A stretch of 33,472 bases of DNA from positions 1-33,472 of the forward strand of contig DASWID010000057.1 of NCBI GenBank assembly GCA_036397855.1, written 5' to 3'. The position numbers and the translations under genes are program-made. A model generated the notes under the pieces. That model searched no databases. It worked only from the letters and a program-made list of their open reading frames with translations, and had not been told where the DNA came from. Numbering within the stretch: the first letter of the stretch is position 1; the number at the start of each line of letters is the position of its first letter. Shown one piece after another: positions 1 to 33,437 of this stretch. The stretch is from Thermodesulfobacteriota bacterium (GTDB lineage: Bacteria; Desulfobacterota_D; UBA1144; Nemesobacterales; CSP1-2).

Positions 1-4
1 TATC

Positions 5-463
5 TTGGCAATAAAGTTCAAAATCAAAAAAGGCTATTTTCAAGATGCACTGCGTTTGATGCGAATTTCCAAAAATCTAAGGGATATAGAAGGCGTAGAA
101 AAGGCCGTCGCAGTAATGGCTACTGAAAAAGCCAAGTTTGCACTCAAAGATGCCGGTCTGATGACCGCAGAAATAAACGATGCTAGTGGAAGTGATCTAG
201 TAATCGTTGTTGAGGCTAAGTCTCTAGAAATTGCAGAAGATACATTGGGCAAGATGGAAGAAATGATATCATCAGGTGGTCCACGAGCTGGGAAGCCATC
301 TTCTTCTAATATACTTAATGATGAAATTCAAGCTATAAATATTGGACTTGAAGCCTTCAAGGACGCATTAGAAGCACAGTGGGTAAAGGTGAAGCACGTC
401 GATTGGCAGGTCCCCGCAAAAGGTGACATGAAGTTAATAAACATTCTGAAGAAGATGTATTGA
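5..463 (+). CDS. Mini-FdrA: N- and C-terminal ends of the FdrA family without the CoA-ligase core
   Basis: The protein has 152 residues from a TTG start at the window edge; the frame stays open upstream, so the true start may lie just outside. Residues 3-90 match the N-terminal domain of FdrA-type acyl-CoA synthetase-like proteins (KKGYFQDALRLMRIS, then EGVEKAVAVMAT and KDAGLMTAEI). Residues 106-150 match the extreme C-terminus of the same family (INIGLEAFKDALEAQ, then VDWQVPAKGD). FdrA is normally about 550 residues, and the CoA-binding and ligase domains in between are missing. A linker of about 15 residues (GGPRAGKPSSSN) joins the ends without a frame break. FdrA works with YlbE/YlbF-type proteins in oxamate/allantoin nitrogen metabolism in E. 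coli. Catalysis by this short form is unlikely, so a subunit or regulatory role is my inference. It could also be the relic of an in-frame deletion. Confidence 0.7.
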   Translation: MAIKFKIKKGYFQDALRLMRISKNLRDIEGVEKAVAVMATEKAKFALKDAGLMTAEINDASGSDLVIVVEAKSLEIAEDTLGKMEEMISSGGPRAGKPSSSNILNDEIQAINIGLEAFKDALEAQWVKVKHVDWQVPAKGDMKLINILKKMY

Positions 464-470
464 TGTAAGA

Positions 471-550
471 ACCACTACGGCACCAAGACACCACGTTCTT
501 AATTATATTAAAACAAATTCATGCCCTAGAGCCATAGTGCCGTTGTAGCC
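471..550. repeat. Left inverted-repeat element flanking the GxxExxY gene
   Basis: The arm ACCACTACGGCACCAAGACA starts at 471. An imperfect complementary arm (AGTGCCGTTGTAG) lies at 536-548, so the element can fold into a hairpin. The outer arm also pairs almost perfectly with 1067-1090 beyond the next gene, giving terminal inverted repeats of a cassette of about 620 bp. Confidence 0.75.
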
Positions 551-1097: not shown

Positions 1098-1664
1098 ATG
1101 AGTTTAAGAAATCCTGAAAGATTAAGAGAGGTTCTTTCAAATCCCAGGGGACTTGCAAGGGCATTTAGTCGGCACACATACGGAATGCTCTCTTGGGTAG
1201 ATTTGTTTGGAACGAAGTTAAAGTCAATAAAAGGAATCGAAATGAAGCTGATCACGGCTAGAATAATTGCCGACAATGCGAAGCATGCGAAGCTTTTTTC
1301 TGATAGGGCTCAAGAACTCGGCGAGAATCCCGAAAAATATAAGCCGCCTCAAATTGGTCAGAAGATCTATGATATTCTCGAATCATATAACGATCCAATT
1401 GATGAATTTGCCTATGCGTTGGGATCACTGGTACATTTTTCTGCTTTACTGGATCTATATCAGAGCGTTGCAGATCCAAAAAGTCGAGAAATAATTGAGG
1501 AGGTTCAAAGAGATATTACAGAACATCTAACCATACTCGAAGATTATTTTGAAAAAGAACCACTCCCACGTGAAAGACAAAAACGTGCCGAAGAAATAAA
1601 GATGCTTGCCGATAAAATCTACACCGAAAGAGAAGATGAGGAGATAAAATGGTATGCAGAATAG
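1098..1664 (+). CDS. Ferritin-like helical protein (tentative di-iron protein), first gene of the PLP-enzyme cluster
   Basis: This 188-residue protein appears all alpha-helical and has no signal peptide. Two helices carry the same acid-x-x-x-His spacing: DNAKH in the segment ADNAKHAKLFSDRAQELG and DITEH in the segment RDITEHLTILEDYF. Further acidic residues lie in the helices before each. This pairing resembles the repeated metal-ligand helices of ferritin-like or PaaA/PaaC-type carboxylate di-iron proteins, but the usual ExxH spacing is shifted by one, so the call is tentative. Its end overlaps the next gene by 11 bases, which indicates translational coupling. No Shine-Dalgarno is visible because a repeat element ends seven bases before the ATG. 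If it binds iron, an oxygenase or oxidase step in the cluster's pathway is an attractive inference. Confidence 0.55.
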   Translation: MSLRNPERLREVLSNPRGLARAFSRHTYGMLSWVDLFGTKLKSIKGIEMKLITARIIADNAKHAKLFSDRAQELGENPEKYKPPQIGQKIYDILESYNDPIDEFAYALGSLVHFSALLDLYQSVADPKSREIIEEVQRDITEHLTILEDYFEKEPLPRERQKRAEEIKMLADKIYTEREDEEIKWYAE

Positions 1665-2508
1665 ATTGATGCCGACTTTTGAGGAGTTGCTTACACCCCT
1701 TCCCTTCTATAGTCCCAGGAAATGGTATTATGACTTGGCTTCTCTTCTTCTACGGTCGATTGGGAAGTGTTCCGAAGGGATAAAAGTAGGATTCCAACAT
1801 GGTTTCGATTCAGGAATGATCATGAACTATATTTACAATAACGTGTCAAGTGGTAGATTTTACATTGGTAAAGTTATAGACAGGGTTTTTCTAAATCAGG
1901 TTACCTGCAAGGCTTTCAGGGCAATAAAAAATATCCAGAAGAACATGATAAAGGATTATATTCAAGAGAGAAATGGAAGCCCAACCTTTGTAGTTGATTT
2001 GGCATCGGGAAAAGCTGACTATATATATGAAGTACTCAGGGAAACTAACGCTTGCGTTAGGGCTCTTCTTCGTGACATCGATCAAAGAGCGTTAATGGAA
2101 AGCAGACAAATTGCTAAGAATTTAGATTTAGAAGACGTCGTGAGTTATGAACTTGCGAATGCCCTTGACCCTGACAGTTTGAACCGGATTACTCCAAAAC
2201 CCAATCTTGTAATCGAAGTAGGACTGTATGGAATTATCCACGATGACGAGCAAATACGATTGCACCTCAAGAATCTTAAAAATATACTCGATCCAGATGC
2301 AATTCTTTTTAATGTTCAAACATACAATCCCCAAATTGAACTGATAGCTAGGACACTTAAAAATCAGGCTGGAGGAAGGTGTGTATGGCATCTACGTTCG
2401 GCAGATCTTGTGATTGGTTGGGCAGAGGGGGCAGGATTTAGGGATCCATATGTCGTGATGGATCCATATGGAATTTATGCAGTAGTCATGATGCGAAACA
2501 GCAATTAA
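1654..2508 (+). CDS. Class I SAM-dependent methyltransferase-like protein
   Basis: This 284-residue protein has a Rossmann SAM-binding motif I at residues 114-123 (VDLASGKADY), an acidic motif II around D142 (LLRDID) and a motif IV-like strand near 184-190 (NLVIEVG). About 110 residues precede the fold and contain a conserved-looking YNNVSSGRFYIGK segment. It resembles the family sometimes labelled Methyltransf_20, but I am unsure of that assignment. The start overlaps the upstream gene by 11 bases, with GAGGAG about ten bases before. ATG codon 6 is an alternative start. The gene lies between a ferritin-like protein and two PLP-fold enzymes, so a tailoring methylation in a small-molecule pathway is inferred. 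The substrate is unknown. Confidence 0.72.
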   Translation: MQNRLMPTFEELLTPLPFYSPRKWYYDLASLLLRSIGKCSEGIKVGFQHGFDSGMIMNYIYNNVSSGRFYIGKVIDRVFLNQVTCKAFRAIKNIQKNMIKDYIQERNGSPTFVVDLASGKADYIYEVLRETNACVRALLRDIDQRALMESRQIAKNLDLEDVVSYELANALDPDSLNRITPKPNLVIEVGLYGIIHDDEQIRLHLKNLKNILDPDAILFNVQTYNPQIELIARTLKNQAGGRCVWHLRSADLVIGWAEGAGFRDPYVVMDPYGIYAVVMMRNSN

Positions 2509-2597: not shown

Positions 2598-4001
2598 GTG
2601 ATCAAAGAGAGGTTCGTACTAGGATGGAAAGACGAACACCAAGATTCGTTTGATATCAAAGATTACTTATCTGACAGAGTAAAATCTGTTATGGAAAGTC
2701 CTCACGGGATGTGGAACTACATGACATACAGGGATGCAATAGGGATTTTGGGATTAGATGCCGGGGGAATTTACAAAGAAGGAAGAATTGATTTAGACCC
2801 CAAAGAATGGGCTGATTTTGGCTGGATGTCTTGTTACGTAGGACCTCCAAAGAGCGCTGTCAAAGAAATGAAGTCTAGAACAAAGGCTTCAAACATTAAT
2901 CCCTATTCACCCGATCTTATTAATCCGCTCAGGGATGCGTGTGCTTTATTGAAACTTGAACGACCAAGAGGAAGAGAGTTTGAAGTCATAGGAACAGAAG
3001 GGGGACAGGCAGGAATTTCTTACTTTCTCCAAACTATTCTCAATCATGGAGATGAAGTCATTATCACCGATCCGGGATATTTTCATTTTGAATCTGCAAT
3101 TCTTATGGCCAGGGGAGTACCCGTGAAGATTCCTCTTAATCCTAAGAATGGTTTCTGTTTAAATCCTGACGAAGTTAAAGAATTTATTTCTCCCAGGACA
3201 AAAGTTTTAATCGTCTGCGATCCGATAAACCCATTTGGGACAGTTCAATCGAAAGAGAGTCTATTAGAACTAATCGAGATTGCAAATGAGCATAATATTT
3301 TCATCCTTAATGATATTACACACAACACACATCGAATTGACCCGACTTTTGAACATCACAGTATGAGTTCATTATGGAGAGACATTAACGTAAATAAGGT
3401 GGTTTCAGTTTTCAGTGTTTCGCATGGATATGGAATGGCGGGTGTTCGCATCGGATTTCTTGCCGGCCATCCAGAGCTTATGAGGCCATGTTTATTGACT
3501 AAAATTTCTTTAACCAGGCTTAACACAAATCTCATCGCTCAGTACGGAGCAATGGCCGCATTAAATGATCATGACTACGTCAGGAAGTCGGAAAGTATTA
3601 TAAGACGCAATTACCGCATTATGAAAGAAATAATCGACAAAACAGAAGGTTTATCAATTCCTGTAGAACCCAGGTATGGCTTTTCCATGGTTTTAGATGT
3701 TTCCGGGACCGGCGTAACGGCCCAGGAGCTTACCGTGGCTTTGTTTAAACATCGAGTCGCCGTATATCCGGGAGATGGACTGGGCGATATCGGTGCAACC
3801 GAGTATATAAGACTCAATATATCCCGGCCGGACATCTGGGCATTTAGGCATTTTCGCAGTGCGCTGCCCATTGCTATCGAAGAAGCGAAATCGGGTATTT
3901 ATCGCGACAGCGTTTACCAATTTTTTAAAAGTAAGCGAACAAAGCGTGCCCGTAAGATCTTACAGAAAATGAATGATTTGCACCTTGCTCGAGACACTTA
4001 G
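2598..4001 (+). CDS. Class I aminotransferase-fold protein with His in place of the PLP-binding Lys
   Basis: This 467-residue protein has a class I/II aminotransferase layout: the TEGGQAGI loop near 133, DPGYFHFE near 158, DPINPFG with N211, NDIT with D239, a small-residue loop ending GMAGVRIGF, and C-terminal YIRLNIS with R405. By spacing to AspAT these equal N194, D222, R266 (R284 here) and R386. The residue equal to Lys258 is H276 (VFSVSHGYG, codon CAT). The tyrosine equal to Tyr225 is H242. A normal internal aldimine cannot form, so this is either a lysine-independent PLP enzyme, as known for ColD in another fold-I branch, or a non-catalytic partner. GTG start with AAAGGAG six bases upstream. 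The neighbours suggest a role in making or modifying an amino-acid-derived compound. Confidence 0.85.
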   Translation: MIKERFVLGWKDEHQDSFDIKDYLSDRVKSVMESPHGMWNYMTYRDAIGILGLDAGGIYKEGRIDLDPKEWADFGWMSCYVGPPKSAVKEMKSRTKASNINPYSPDLINPLRDACALLKLERPRGREFEVIGTEGGQAGISYFLQTILNHGDEVIITDPGYFHFESAILMARGVPVKIPLNPKNGFCLNPDEVKEFISPRTKVLIVCDPINPFGTVQSKESLLELIEIANEHNIFILNDITHNTHRIDPTFEHHSMSSLWRDINVNKVVSVFSVSHGYGMAGVRIGFLAGHPELMRPCLLTKISLTRLNTNLIAQYGAMAALNDHDYVRKSESIIRRNYRIMKEIIDKTEGLSIPVEPRYGFSMVLDVSGTGVTAQELTVALFKHRVAVYPGDGLGDIGATEYIRLNISRPDIWAFRHFRSALPIAIEEAKSGIYRDSVYQFFKSKRTKRARKILQKMNDLHLARDT

Positions 4002-4187: not shown

Positions 4188-5420
4188 ATGGATAAGATAG
4201 AAGGCGTTTCGGTTGAAAAGCTCGTAAATGATTTCGGTTCCCCACTTTTTGTTGTCTCTGCTAAGACCATTAGAGATAATCTAAAAAGGTTTCGTGGCGA
4301 GTTTTCAGCTAGATATCCAAAAGTTGAAGTTGCCTATTCCTACAAAGCTAACTGTCTAAGTGGGGTGCTGGACATAATACACAATGAAGGGGCATGGGCC
4401 GAAGTAGCCTCCGGCTTTGAATATGAATTAGCAAGAAAGATTGGAGTACCAGGCGAATCCATTGTTTTTAACGGCCCCTACAAGAAAAAAGAGGAAATAA
4501 AAAAAGCGATTCGAGAAGGTGCCCTAATCAATGTTGACAACGAAAGTGAACTAAAGCTGTTGGAGGAAATTACATTCAAATCCAAACAGCCAATCGAGGT
4601 GGGTATCAGAATTAATACAGATGTCGGGATAAACCAGTTGCCTGATAGATTTGGATTTAACATTGAATCAGGCAAAGCTTTGGAGATCGTAAACTATTGT
4701 ACAAAGAAAACGTCTATCAGAATAGCAGGGATTCACATCCATATTACAAGCTATATCATTTCCCCGGAAGTCTTGAATAACAAGACCCCTGCAAAGAGTA
4801 TAGAACTTATTTGGCCAAAAGACTCAAATTTGTACAGACTAGCGGCGCATAAAATTACTTATTTTGCTGAAGAAATAAGAAAGAGGTTTGGTATAACCTT
4901 AAAGTACATAGACATGGGAGGCGGGTACCCGACACTTGATTCAATCACATCCTATGCAAACGCCATAGTTGAGCCAATGTTAGAGATGTTCGATCATGAG
5001 CACCCCCTTTTGATACTGGAACCTGGAAGAGCAGTTGTAAAAGATGCTGTAGAACTCATAACAACTGTTGTCGATGTTAAAGAATTATCGAATGATACAG
5101 CTTCAGTCGTAGTCGATTCAGGAATAAATATTCTTCCTACATCATTCTGGAAGTTCCAGCAGATTGAACCCATCAACAAAAAAGCTGTCAGCTCGAAGGA
5201 GACTGTTGTTTATGGGCCACTTTGTCTTCAGACAGATATTTTGGGTATAACAAAACTCCCAGATCTGAACGTAGGCGACAGGCTTGTTATAAAAAACGTC
5301 GGGGCATATAACATTTCTCAAGCCAGTTCATTCATATTCCCGCTCCCTTCTATAATTCTTACGGATAACAACAAGGTGAAAGTTCTAAGGAGTTCAGAAA
5401 CAATAAAAGACGTTATATAG
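4188..5420 (+). CDS. Alanine-racemase-fold PLP decarboxylase (DAP/ornithine decarboxylase group IV), divergent
   Basis: This 410-residue protein has the family layout: PLP-binding K53 in YSYKAN, a conserved-position His segment GIHIHIT at 181-187, glycine loop GGGYP at 244-248 for the PLP phosphate, EPGR at 278-281, and the second-subunit region GPLCLQTD with C346 and D350, then GAYNISQ. In diaminopimelate decarboxylases the Cys is followed by Glu (CESGD). Here Leu and Gln follow, so the substrate probably is not meso-DAP. Similar stand-alone homologues serve in natural-product and siderophore pathways (SbnH, BtrK). It lies 186 bases after the aminotransferase-fold gene, behind a repeat. No strong Shine-Dalgarno is visible. 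The likely reaction is decarboxylation of an amino acid or conjugate, by inference. Confidence 0.85.
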   Translation: MDKIEGVSVEKLVNDFGSPLFVVSAKTIRDNLKRFRGEFSARYPKVEVAYSYKANCLSGVLDIIHNEGAWAEVASGFEYELARKIGVPGESIVFNGPYKKKEEIKKAIREGALINVDNESELKLLEEITFKSKQPIEVGIRINTDVGINQLPDRFGFNIESGKALEIVNYCTKKTSIRIAGIHIHITSYIISPEVLNNKTPAKSIELIWPKDSNLYRLAAHKITYFAEEIRKRFGITLKYIDMGGGYPTLDSITSYANAIVEPMLEMFDHEHPLLILEPGRAVVKDAVELITTVVDVKELSNDTASVVVDSGINILPTSFWKFQQIEPINKKAVSSKETVVYGPLCLQTDILGITKLPDLNVGDRLVIKNVGAYNISQASSFIFPLPSIILTDNNKVKVLRSSETIKDVI

Positions 5421-30134: not shown

Positions 30135-31841
30135 ATGAATGTAATTGGTAAGAAATACTCTGAGATTATATTAGAGGAAAAGGCGCTGCTAGAATCCCTT
30201 GTTCCGGAAATTAAGTCGACATCAAACGAAAAGCTTGAAAGGAAATTAAACAGCGCGCGCGACAATCTTGAAAACCTCTTCTCAGTAGTTTTCATAGGTG
30301 AGTTCAGCACCGGGAAATCGACAATAATAAACGCGCTGTTGGGAAGAAACATCCTTCCGGAAGGAATCACTCCGACCACCGATAAAATAACCATCATCAA
30401 ATACGGTGAAACATTTGAGGAATCAAATGATAACGGCAACCATTATATTGCGATCAACGAAGAAAGGCTTAAAGGTTTTTTCATCGTAGACACTCCCGGA
30501 ACAAACGTCACAATAGAACAGCATGAAAAGATAACCCAGGACTTCATACCAAACGCCGATATAGTTTTTTTTACAATAGGAGCAGAAAGAGCCGTAACCG
30601 GAAGCGAAGCAAAGCTCATAAGATTCATAAAAGAAGACTGGCTTAAAAATATAGTATTCCTCCTAAATAAGACTGATATAGTAGATGACGACAGTGAACT
30701 AAATGAGCTGATACGGCATACGGAGGGTGAACTGCAGAGAATATTCAAGATTAGACCGTTTCTGATACCCATTTCTGCAAAGTTTGCCAATAATGCAAGG
30801 GCCTCATCCGATGAAGAACTTTATAGAAGGAGTGGAATAAAAAAGGTTGAAGACTACATTTTCAAGACTCTAGGAGAACAAGAACGGATCAGGATGAAAA
30901 TAAAGGGATCTTCCGAATTTGCTATGAGTCTATGTACCGAAACAATAAAAGCGATTGATAACAACATTCAAAAGATATCTACTGACATGGTAAAGATCGG
31001 CGAGTTCGAAAATAGATTAACAGGAATGAAGGAAGAGATCTTCTATAACTCAAATCAGTTCACGGAGAGGATTAAGACAAGACTCCTTGAATTTAAAACA
31101 AGGGGTATAGAGTTTATCGATGATCTAATCCGATTTGAGAATGTGCTTAAACTATTCAGAAAAGAAAAGATCGCAAAGGAATTTGAGTCCAGAGTCTCAC
31201 TTCAGACCGTAAAGGAGCTGGAAAAAGACCTTGATGCTTTGGTTAGCTGGACAGAGCGATCCGCGAGGACAATGATGGATACATCACTCGAGTTTTATCG
31301 CAATTCCATCCAACCAGAATCAACAAAGGTAAGCACTGGCTTTTCTTACGATAGATCACTGCTCATAGACACTGTCAGGACGGAAATCGATAAAAGACAA
31401 AAGCAAATCGACCCGGCGCTGCTGGGTGGCAATCTTGTCGACTCCGCAAGAACTGCTATTGCATCGGTTTTGGGAGTTCAAGTAGGATCCCTTGCAATCG
31501 GTGCGGCAGTTATCTCAGCATTCTCGTCTATAATTGTCGATATAACAGGGATAATAGCAACGATTGCCGTAGTTGCTACGGCTTTTGCTATACTTCCCAG
31601 AAAAAGAAGGAATGCGATGAAGGAGTTTAGCGCTAAAGTAGACACCTTGATTAAGGAATTAAGCTCAAGCATAAGCTCACAGCTTGAGAGAGACCTTGAT
31701 AGCATAAAAATGCAGATCCTGGATTCTCTGATTCCCCTAAAGAACTTTTATAAAATACAGGAAACAAAACTTCTTCAGTCTAAAAACCGTGTTGAAGAAA
31801 TAGGTGAAAAGTTCACTAAGATCAATAGGAGCGTGTCATAG
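30135..31841 (+). CDS. Bacterial dynamin-like GTPase
   Basis: This 568-residue large GTPase has G1 GEFSTGKST at 55-63, G2 threonines in GITPTTDK (78-84), G3 DTPG at 119-122 and G4 NKTD at 178-181. Long helical neck and trunk segments follow, then a hydrophobic hairpin (about residues 435-492, with LGVQVGSLAIGAAVISAFSS and IIATIAVVATAFAILP) that matches the membrane-inserting paddle of bacterial dynamins. These proteins bind and remodel membranes, sometimes in stress or phage defence. Bacterial dynamins often come in tandem pairs; only one is present here. No Shine-Dalgarno precedes the ATG. A palindrome and TATAAT lie just upstream. Confidence 0.92.
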   Translation: MNVIGKKYSEIILEEKALLESLVPEIKSTSNEKLERKLNSARDNLENLFSVVFIGEFSTGKSTIINALLGRNILPEGITPTTDKITIIKYGETFEESNDNGNHYIAINEERLKGFFIVDTPGTNVTIEQHEKITQDFIPNADIVFFTIGAERAVTGSEAKLIRFIKEDWLKNIVFLLNKTDIVDDDSELNELIRHTEGELQRIFKIRPFLIPISAKFANNARASSDEELYRRSGIKKVEDYIFKTLGEQERIRMKIKGSSEFAMSLCTETIKAIDNNIQKISTDMVKIGEFENRLTGMKEEIFYNSNQFTERIKTRLLEFKTRGIEFIDDLIRFENVLKLFRKEKIAKEFESRVSLQTVKELEKDLDALVSWTERSARTMMDTSLEFYRNSIQPESTKVSTGFSYDRSLLIDTVRTEIDKRQKQIDPALLGGNLVDSARTAIASVLGVQVGSLAIGAAVISAFSSIIVDITGIIATIAVVATAFAILPRKRRNAMKEFSAKVDTLIKELSSSISSQLERDLDSIKMQILDSLIPLKNFYKIQETKLLQSKNRVEEIGEKFTKINRSVS

Positions 31842-32048: not shown

Positions 32049-33437
32049 ATGAGGGGAACTTTAGGAATAATACTTACACTCTTAGTCTTGCTCTCGCCGA
32101 CTCATCCATTACACGCCCAAAGCATCAGAGCCGGAGGTTTTGCGAGCCGCGGAATTAGCGGAGGAATTAGGGGAGCAAGGATTGGGACAACCGGTTCTGG
32201 AAGACAGGGGATGGTCTCAAATTTCCGCGGACGGTTCAGTCAGGTTGGCTCATCCTCAAGCTTTAGAGGAAATAGCGTCGGGATGAGTAATGGAATGGCT
32301 AATTCGAGCTTTCGAGAACGAGGTTTCGGACGAAATATTCCAAATGCCGGAGCTTCATTCAGTTCCAGCTCGAACCTAACAACCTCGACTCTGGGTAAAA
32401 ACATCTCAAATCCACAATTTCAATTAATTTCTCCCTCCAGAAAAAATACTATAGCACCTGTCAATAGGGGGTCTATCGGTTTTGGTTCTAGAAGGCTAAA
32501 CAAAGTAAGATCTACATTTCAAAAGGATACATTAATAACGAAGACAGGTCGAAATTATCCCTCTTCTAATAATATCGGCAATACGTTTAGGGGACTAAAC
32601 AAGCCTCTTATCATTGATAACAAGGCTTCCTTGATATCTAAGAGATTAAACTCCAATCGAAATGGGAATCTGAAACGCAGATTAGCCGGAAAAGAGGGAA
32701 GCATCAAACCTGTAAATGAAATATCAATAGCTTCTGCTGGGAACAGAGATATCGCTCATTGGGTTGATGGAGATAATGGCATTAAACATTTTTCAAACGA
32801 CATAAATTCAATTCCCGAAGAAGCCAAAAGAATTAGTCGGGTTGATGGTAAAAGGCCCAGGTTGGTGTCGGGTTTATCAGATAGAACCAGAAACCTTAGA
32901 AATTCTCAGCCTCGTTTAAGAGGAGCATCCTTCACGAGCCCAGATAAAACTGCAAATCTCGTCATGGAAAAGACCGCCGATTTTCCAGGTCAACGCCGAG
33001 GCTTTGCGATTGGCCGGGATCATGAAAGAAGAAATATTCACAATGCTAACCCTACTAAAGGCTTCCATCATAATAAGGGTTTCGCCGACACTGATCGCCA
33101 CCACTTCCGTCATCATCGCTTTCATCACGGTCACTTCTTTCCATTTGATCCATTTTTCTTTGGCAACTCATTTTTCTTTTTCCGGCCATTCTTCCCTCTT
33201 TCAAGCTTCTTCTTTGTGAATAATCCTTTTATATTTCAACCAATTTTTCCATCGCCATTCTTCGGTTTTCAGCCTTTTTTTGTGCCTGCGATACCAATTG
33301 TTTTCTTTCCAGTTTCCCCCCAATTTACAACATTCACACCATTTATAAATCCATTTTTCATAAATCCCTTTTTCGACCCATTTTTTTTTCAGACGGACTT
33401 TTTCTTTAACTCAATCGCCTTTAATAATTTCTTTTAA
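32049..33437 (+). CDS. Exported Gly/Ser/Arg-rich protein with a DUF4124-like segment and a phenylalanine-rich tail
   Basis: This 462-residue protein has a signal peptide (residues 1-24, ending LHAQ). An N-terminal low-complexity region is rich in Gly, Ser, Arg and Asn (GGFASRGISGGIRGARIGTT). Near residues 235-262, DIAHWVDGDNGIKHFSNDIN resembles the DUF4124 pattern 'yrWvDedGv.hfSd.P'. A His-rich stretch (HHFRHHRFHHGH) follows, and the last 100 residues contain 41 Phe in FFF, PFF and NPFF clusters up to the C-terminus. GGAG lies about eight bases before the ATG. Nothing known to me has such a tail. A sticky or membrane-associating surface module is inferred. The base run is T-rich but the frame stays open over 300 bases, so it is under coding constraint. 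Confidence 0.75.
   Translation: MRGTLGIILTLLVLLSPTHPLHAQSIRAGGFASRGISGGIRGARIGTTGSGRQGMVSNFRGRFSQVGSSSSFRGNSVGMSNGMANSSFRERGFGRNIPNAGASFSSSSNLTTSTLGKNISNPQFQLISPSRKNTIAPVNRGSIGFGSRRLNKVRSTFQKDTLITKTGRNYPSSNNIGNTFRGLNKPLIIDNKASLISKRLNSNRNGNLKRRLAGKEGSIKPVNEISIASAGNRDIAHWVDGDNGIKHFSNDINSIPEEAKRISRVDGKRPRLVSGLSDRTRNLRNSQPRLRGASFTSPDKTANLVMEKTADFPGQRRGFAIGRDHERRNIHNANPTKGFHHNKGFADTDRHHFRHHRFHHGHFFPFDPFFFGNSFFFFRPFFPLSSFFFVNNPFIFQPIFPSPFFGFQPFFVPAIPIVFFPVSPQFTTFTPFINPFFINPFFDPFFFQTDFFFNSIAFNNFF

Follow-up and report, generated by a model that had tools for sequence, protein, structure and literature searches.

The protein encoded at 2598-4001 has the fold of a class I/II aminotransferase (fold type I), but it lacks the Schiff-base lysine and has a histidine (His276) in its place. 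The change from lysine to histidine at this position is selected and conserved, not decay. A Schiff-base lysine is the defining mark of PLP enzymes; to our knowledge, only a few natural families do without it, and each has revealed unusual chemistry. We propose that this fold-I protein is probably an enzyme in which PLP or PMP is bound non-covalently and His276 acts as the acid/base, by analogy with ColD, E1 and SpnQ in another branch of the fold.

All 33,472 nucleotides of contig C57 make up the window, which comes from a bacterium of the order Nemesobacterales (Thermodesulfobacteriota). We refer to proteins with histidine at position 276 as His-type and to their relatives with lysine as Lys-type. 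The gene and the main pocket residues are as follows.

2598..4001, + strand: His-type (lysine-less) class I aminotransferase-fold enzyme, 467 amino acids, GTG start (PF00155, AlphaFold2, Foldseek)
3312..3314, + strand: Asp239 (AspAT Asp222, ligand of the pyridine N1), codon GAT; Asn in Lys-type
3321..3323, + strand: His242 (AspAT Tyr225), codon CAC; invariant in His- and Lys-types
3423..3425, + strand: His276, in the place of the Schiff-base lysine of PLP enzymes, codon CAT; placed by alignments and conserved in 37/37
3447..3449, + strand: Arg284 (AspAT Arg266, phosphate); invariant
3810..3812, + strand: Arg405 (AspAT Arg386, substrate alpha-carboxylate); invariant in full-length members

The original prediction put a histidine at the PLP-lysine position of a class I fold and held that the other landmarks (N211, D239, R284 and R405), as well as the 8-residue spacing to the arginine, were kept. 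Our profile searches and alignments bear this out. The product matches PF00155 (Aminotran_1_2) with E = 4.8e-33 and 115.3 bits, versus a gathering score of 19.7. The match to PF01041, which covers the DegT/DnrJ/EryC1/StrS branch, is much weaker (E = 1.4e-07). ColD was rightly named as the comparison, and it is a case from another branch. HMMER alignments to the solved class I aminotransferases 1dju, 1gd9 and 1j32 set S-V-S-H-G-Y-G-M-A-G-V-R-I-G over S-K-x-x-x-M-x-G-x-R-x-G, so that His276 aligns with the PLP lysine and Arg284 follows at +8. Paralogues from the same genome have SK at this position, where the window has Ser275 (codon TCG) and His276. The equivalents of Asp222, Asn194, Arg266 and Arg386 are all present as D239, N211, R284 and R405; in AspAT numbering, we take Asn211, Asp239, His242, Arg284 and Arg405 to be N194, D222, Y225, R266 and R386. 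The AlphaFold2 model is confident (pLDDT 89.8, pTM 0.89), and its best PDB matches in Foldseek are ordinary class I aminotransferases (TMt 0.84-0.89). Thermus AspAT, prephenate aminotransferase and GntC are among the best solved folds.

We searched 61 genomes (the window's own and its relatives) and found a match at E 1e-30 in 26 and, in 22 of these, a close orthologue (~64% identity or more). A scan of the collection gave further His-type members at 38-55% identity in Thermoleophilia, Dehalococcoidia and Omnitrophota, and later searches added more from Thermoleophilia; together with those from Dadabacteria-type bacteria, these are the sources of the His-type orthologues. All 37 distinct (non-redundant) His-type proteins have His276, in the motif [SA]H[GC][YWH]G[ML]A. 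N211, R284, R405, His242, Tyr103 and Tyr161 are invariant. Between close pairs, dN/dS is ~0.05-0.10, which indicates strong purifying selection. The view that this is a selected change in an otherwise intact pocket is thus upheld by both the conservation of His276 and the dN/dS values.

Two relatives depart from this pattern. A protein from Thermoleophilia (L055/L092 in genome G072; L055 9524-11359) lacks residue 276 (SGLA-GLGL) and has a change at Tyr278, and it is still in the gene cluster described below, so His276 may be dispensable in places. The other is the Omnitrophota member (L057), which combines His276 with Asn239 and is not in the cluster. Among viral contigs, we found no relative of the 2598-4001 product with either a single sequence or a profile as the query. 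Plasmid records gave distant ordinary aminotransferases only, all less than 60% identical (24-33% among the matches listed).

Lys276 is kept in six proteins that are 45-48% identical to the His-type: from Rhizobium herbae, two Pararhizobium, a Rhodobacteraceae, a Rhodospirillaceae and a Tissierellia (loci L046, L050, L060, L045, L053 and L051). These tie the family to lysine-bearing enzymes. They resemble the His-type in matching over nearly the full length, in the same N-terminal region, and in having Thr241-His242 and Arg405; unlike the His-type, they have Lys276, Asn239, Pro281 and other residues at 307-310. Position 239 follows position 276: it is Asp in 36/37 His-type proteins and Asn in 6/6 Lys-type proteins. 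In all, 13 alignment columns part the two types cleanly, including D239/N, H276/K, A281/P, R307/K, N309/H and T310/I. Asp is near-universal at the position that contacts the pyridine nitrogen in fold-I enzymes, and the Asn239 of the Lys-type clade is itself unusual for such an enzyme. The Lys-type genes are outside the cluster, and a GntR/FCD regulator adjoins three of the six.

In rooted trees, the Lys-type proteins form a single clade with support of 100/100, and a single His-type clade is not rejected (p-AU 0.52). Because the outgroups and L057 are on long branches, the trees do not distinguish one change from lysine to histidine from a reversal from histidine to lysine.

The Lys-type clade bears on two parts of the original prediction. 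The first was that His276 and His242 are a selected pair of substitutions. Selection on His276 stands, and the coupling does not: Thr241 and His242 are invariant in the His276 family and the Lys276 clade alike, so His242 predates the loss of the lysine or is independent of it. The second was that homologues with lysine at 276 would refute the claim. Such homologues do exist, but because they are a separate clade, with Asn239 and outside the cluster, the claim for the His clade is not undone.

The His-type gene lies within a conserved cluster of ~17 to 20 genes, on which the original prediction was silent. The cluster combines a nitrilase-free Nit1C core (a radical SAM protein, a GNAT protein, AIR synthase, MSMEG_0572 and a glycosyltransferase) with genes for oxamate carbamoyltransferase (AllFGH) and carbamate kinase, and further with those for a methyltransferase, a PLP decarboxylase and a protein resembling ferritin. 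For instance, the complete cluster of genome G019 (L100/L115) runs GNAT, AIR synthase, HTH/cupin regulator, AllG, AllF, carbamate kinase, MSMEG_0572, radical SAM MSMEG_0568, disulfide reductase, small protein, AllH, glycosyltransferase MSMEG_0565, OsmC, FdrA-N-like, ferritin-like, methyltransferase, aminotransferase, PALP and decarboxylase. Across the order, the His-type aminotransferase gene comes after a PF12147 methyltransferase gene and usually a ferritin-like gene, and before genes for a PALP cysteine-synthase-like protein and a fold-III decarboxylase. Most His-type genes with enough flanking sequence are in the conserved cluster; a few copies (L034, L035 and L041) are beside the methyltransferase only. 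Thermoleophilia and Dehalococcoidia have a largely similar gene set, or part of it, in other arrangements, with a luciferase-like monooxygenase or an amidohydrolase. One genome has a second His-type copy in a rearranged locus (L109 10658-19373, G001:C23), with methyltransferase, aminotransferase, luciferase-like, PALP, oxidoreductase, ferritin-like and decarboxylase genes.

Within the order, 19 genomes have both the aminotransferase and the cluster's radical SAM gene, 3 and 2 have just one of them, and 20 have neither (Fisher p = 3.6e-7, which is a guide only because the genomes are related and not independent). The radical SAM protein MSMEG_0568, MSMEG_0572/Sll0783, the GNAT protein MSMEG_0567/Sll0786, the AIR synthase Sll0787 and the glycosyltransferase MSMEG_0565 all score over their NCBIfam cut-offs, and TIGR04043, TIGR04044, TIGR04045 and TIGR04049 do so in L048/L115. 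No Sll0784-type nitrilase was over its cut-off in the 44 genomes of the order or in the 9 genomes of other groups. All three AllFGH subunits and carbamate kinase (ArcC) are present by profile match: AllF is over its NCBIfam cut-off (478.5 vs 433), AllG matches PF06545 (7.2e-80) and AllH matches PF11392. As for the Nit1C flavoprotein (ORF7), the cluster has a pyridine nucleotide-disulphide oxidoreductase, but it scores as CoA-disulfide-reductase-like. The MshA/BshA-like glycosyltransferase, the disulfide reductase and OsmC could fit low-molecular-weight thiol metabolism. This Nit1C-AllFGH supercluster (seen at L100, L115, L048, L038, L040 and L120) is undescribed so far, and our literature search found no paper joining Nit1C, carbamate kinase, Dadabacteria and aminotransferase.

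The window itself carries one end of the cluster, without the PALP cysteine-synthase-like gene.

1..515, + strand: 5' end of the contig, matching the 3' end of contig C163 with 96.3% identity over 515 bases
5..463, + strand: FdrA N-terminal-like small protein, a cluster member at the 5' end of the contig (partial NF004760 match; synteny)
1098..1664, + strand: ferritin-like / TenA-HDO-like helical protein (weak MiaE_2 match, PF13794, 8.1e-06; AlphaFold2; Foldseek; synteny)
1654..2508, + strand: SAM methyltransferase, PF12147 Methyltransf_20 (E = 1.2e-54), conserved directly upstream of the aminotransferase gene
4188..5420, + strand: fold-III PLP decarboxylase, DAP / N-citrylornithine decarboxylase-like (profile matches; synteny)

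Because of the overlap of the contig ends (L120 16836-17350 on C163), the window runs on into C163, which bears the upstream half of the cluster, including homologues of the Nit1C genes for the radical SAM protein, MSMEG_0572, GNAT and AIR synthase, plus an amidohydrolase. That the overlap is less than perfect suggests a mixture of strains in the assembly. The decarboxylase retains its own PLP lysine (K53 in YKAN). The ferritin-like protein is modelled as a bundle of seven helices (pLDDT 94.9) with weak Foldseek matches (E ~4e-3) to TenA, CADD, BesC and a ferritin-like protein. H26, H63 (in NAxH63), H113, E179 and E182 are conserved among these cluster proteins, and a metal site is possible; because a canonical ExxH pair is not conserved, we do not claim a standard diiron oxidase. 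A GxxExxY protein (PD-(D/E)XK-like; 602-1003) is inserted after the FdrA-N-like gene and before the ferritin-like one, in this genome only among those we saw. Near the other end of the window are a LeoA-type bacterial dynamin-like GTPase (30135-31841) and a 462-amino-acid protein with no Pfam match (32049-33437), which is possibly its partner.

How might an aminotransferase fold work without the lysine? With the sites for the phosphate, the ring and the carboxylate intact, the protein would be expected still to bind a B6 cofactor together with an amino or keto acid. With the lysine absent, the enzyme would give up the internal aldimine, so the cofactor would be held non-covalently, by Tyr103, Tyr161, Asn211, Asp239, His242, Ser273/Ser275 and Arg284, and Arg405 would receive the carboxylate of the intermediate, an amino or keto acid. 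His276 would be the natural acid/base, taking over the lysine's role in proton transfer as the catalytic histidine does in E1, ColD and SpnQ. Most likely, the enzyme would act on one dedicated intermediate, either by elimination or dehydration with the help of PMP or PLP or by a single half-transamination. An engineered K258H variant of AspAT reportedly retains slow half-reactions.

The enzyme would then serve a pathway presumably encoded by the nitrilase-free Nit1C and oxamate-carbamoyltransferase cluster. From the gene content, it is plausible that this pathway handles a carbamoyl- or nitrile-related nitrogen compound. Carbamate kinase connects carbamoyl phosphate to ATP, and HypE, from the same superfamily as AIR synthase, makes cyanide from carbamoyl phosphate. 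We speculate that the AIR-synthase-like protein might, like HypE, activate a carbamoyl-derived amide toward a nitrile or a heterocycle. More tentatively than for the enzyme alone, we suggest that this could be an independently evolved lysine-less class I family, with non-covalent PLP/PMP catalysis on an amino acid, that carries out a step of an undescribed pathway coupling carbamoyl transfer (AllFGH and carbamate kinase) to the radical SAM/AIR-synthase core of Nit1C.

Alternatively, the protein could have lost B6 chemistry and act as a binding, scaffold or regulatory subunit of the cluster's enzyme complex. LCB1, the lysine-less subunit of eukaryotic serine palmitoyltransferase, is an example. 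The cluster does encode multi-subunit assemblies such as AllFGH, and the Thermoleophilia protein without even His276 remains within it. However, the residue at 276 is specifically histidine, Arg405, Asn211, Arg284, His242, Tyr103 and Tyr161 are all invariant, and the Lys-type partner that an LCB1-like subunit needs does not co-occur in the cluster. We consider a pseudoenzyme to be unlikely.

We think it quite improbable that the protein works with PLP rather than PMP and that the lysine was never needed for its key step, which would be external-aldimine chemistry such as decarboxylation, retro-aldol cleavage, C-S lysis or a guanidine-type cyclodehydration, with His276 merely positioning the substrate. 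In favour of this, the closest curated models and folds include the PLP cyclodehydratase GntC, and the neighbouring PALP and decarboxylase genes point to amino acid intermediates. But the score for the GntC equivalog is far below the cut-off, and because the resemblance to GntC is as strong in the Lys-type clade, it is not informative about the His-type specifically.

It is very doubtful that the protein is an ordinary transaminase with its Schiff base on another lysine. K302 is invariant, and it is the sole lysine found in at least 90% of His-type proteins. However, it is equally invariant in the Lys276 clade, so it is not a replacement for the lost lysine, and the non-redundant alignment has no lysine specific to the His-type. 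No lysine was found to stand in for it. Although the assemblies are metagenome-derived, sequencing error or early gene decay is refuted: 37 distinct sequences, drawn from many assemblies and several phyla, all have histidine here, with intact frames and strong purifying selection.

If His276 is indeed the acid/base of a non-covalent B6 enzyme, then these proteins suggest a new branch of B6 chemistry in uncultured bacteria. The His276/Asp239 clade, which is tied to one cluster, and the Lys276/Asn239 clade are a clean natural experiment: because they are paired clades of the same protein, the evolutionary loss of the lysine can be tested directly by swapping residues. Through the cluster, the Nit1C genes, long without an explanation, are linked with carbamoyl transfer, and concrete partner genes become available for finding their metabolite.

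Among the known systems closest to the cluster is Nit1C, which was originally described in PMC1199592 and whose genes have been connected, in Pseudomonas, with the assimilation of cyanide and nitriles (PMC11049912). Both have the radical SAM protein, MSMEG_0572, GNAT, AIR synthase and the glycosyltransferase. Unlike Nit1C, the cluster has no Sll0784-type nitrilase over the cut-off, and it is joined to AllFGH, carbamate kinase, the methyltransferase, the ferritin-like protein, the His-type aminotransferase and the decarboxylase. With carbamoyl phosphate, AllFGH forms or breaks down carbamoyl compounds (PMC11326118). AllFGH and carbamate kinase are the same gene set as in the allantoin pathway of E. 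coli. In contrast to E. coli, we recognised no allantoin genes nearby, and AllFGH is embedded among Nit1C genes.

For the enzyme, the nearest curated models and solved folds are the PLP cyclodehydratases GntC and VioD and class I aminotransferases (PRK06225, Thermus AspAT). All of these use a lysine, and the His-type scores far under their equivalog cut-offs: for GntC (NF041364), it scores 149.5 bits vs a cut-off of 415, with an NCBIfam E-value of 1.1e-43 and a TMt of 0.87 between the GntC structure 8fft and the His-type model (Foldseek). We found no known lysine-less family in the PF00155 branch from which to transfer a function, and literature searches for a catalytic lysine replaced by histidine mostly returned ordinary aminotransferases.

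A close parallel is with the ASAT-like fold-I nucleotide-sugar 3-dehydratases E1, ColD and SpnQ, which also have a histidine in place of the conserved lysine and use it as the catalytic base and acid on PMP (PMC8987622). These belong to the DegT/DnrJ/EryC1/StrS branch of sugar aminotransferases, whereas the His-type is class I (PF00155) and retains Arg405, the arginine of amino-acid enzymes. The His-type lacks the 2Fe-2S motif of four cysteines found in E1 and SpnQ, C207 being its sole invariant cysteine, and its cluster has no evident nucleotide-sugar genes except for one glycosyltransferase. Fold-I B6 enzymes with histidine instead of lysine were thus already known; what is new is their presence in a different branch and in an undescribed cluster.
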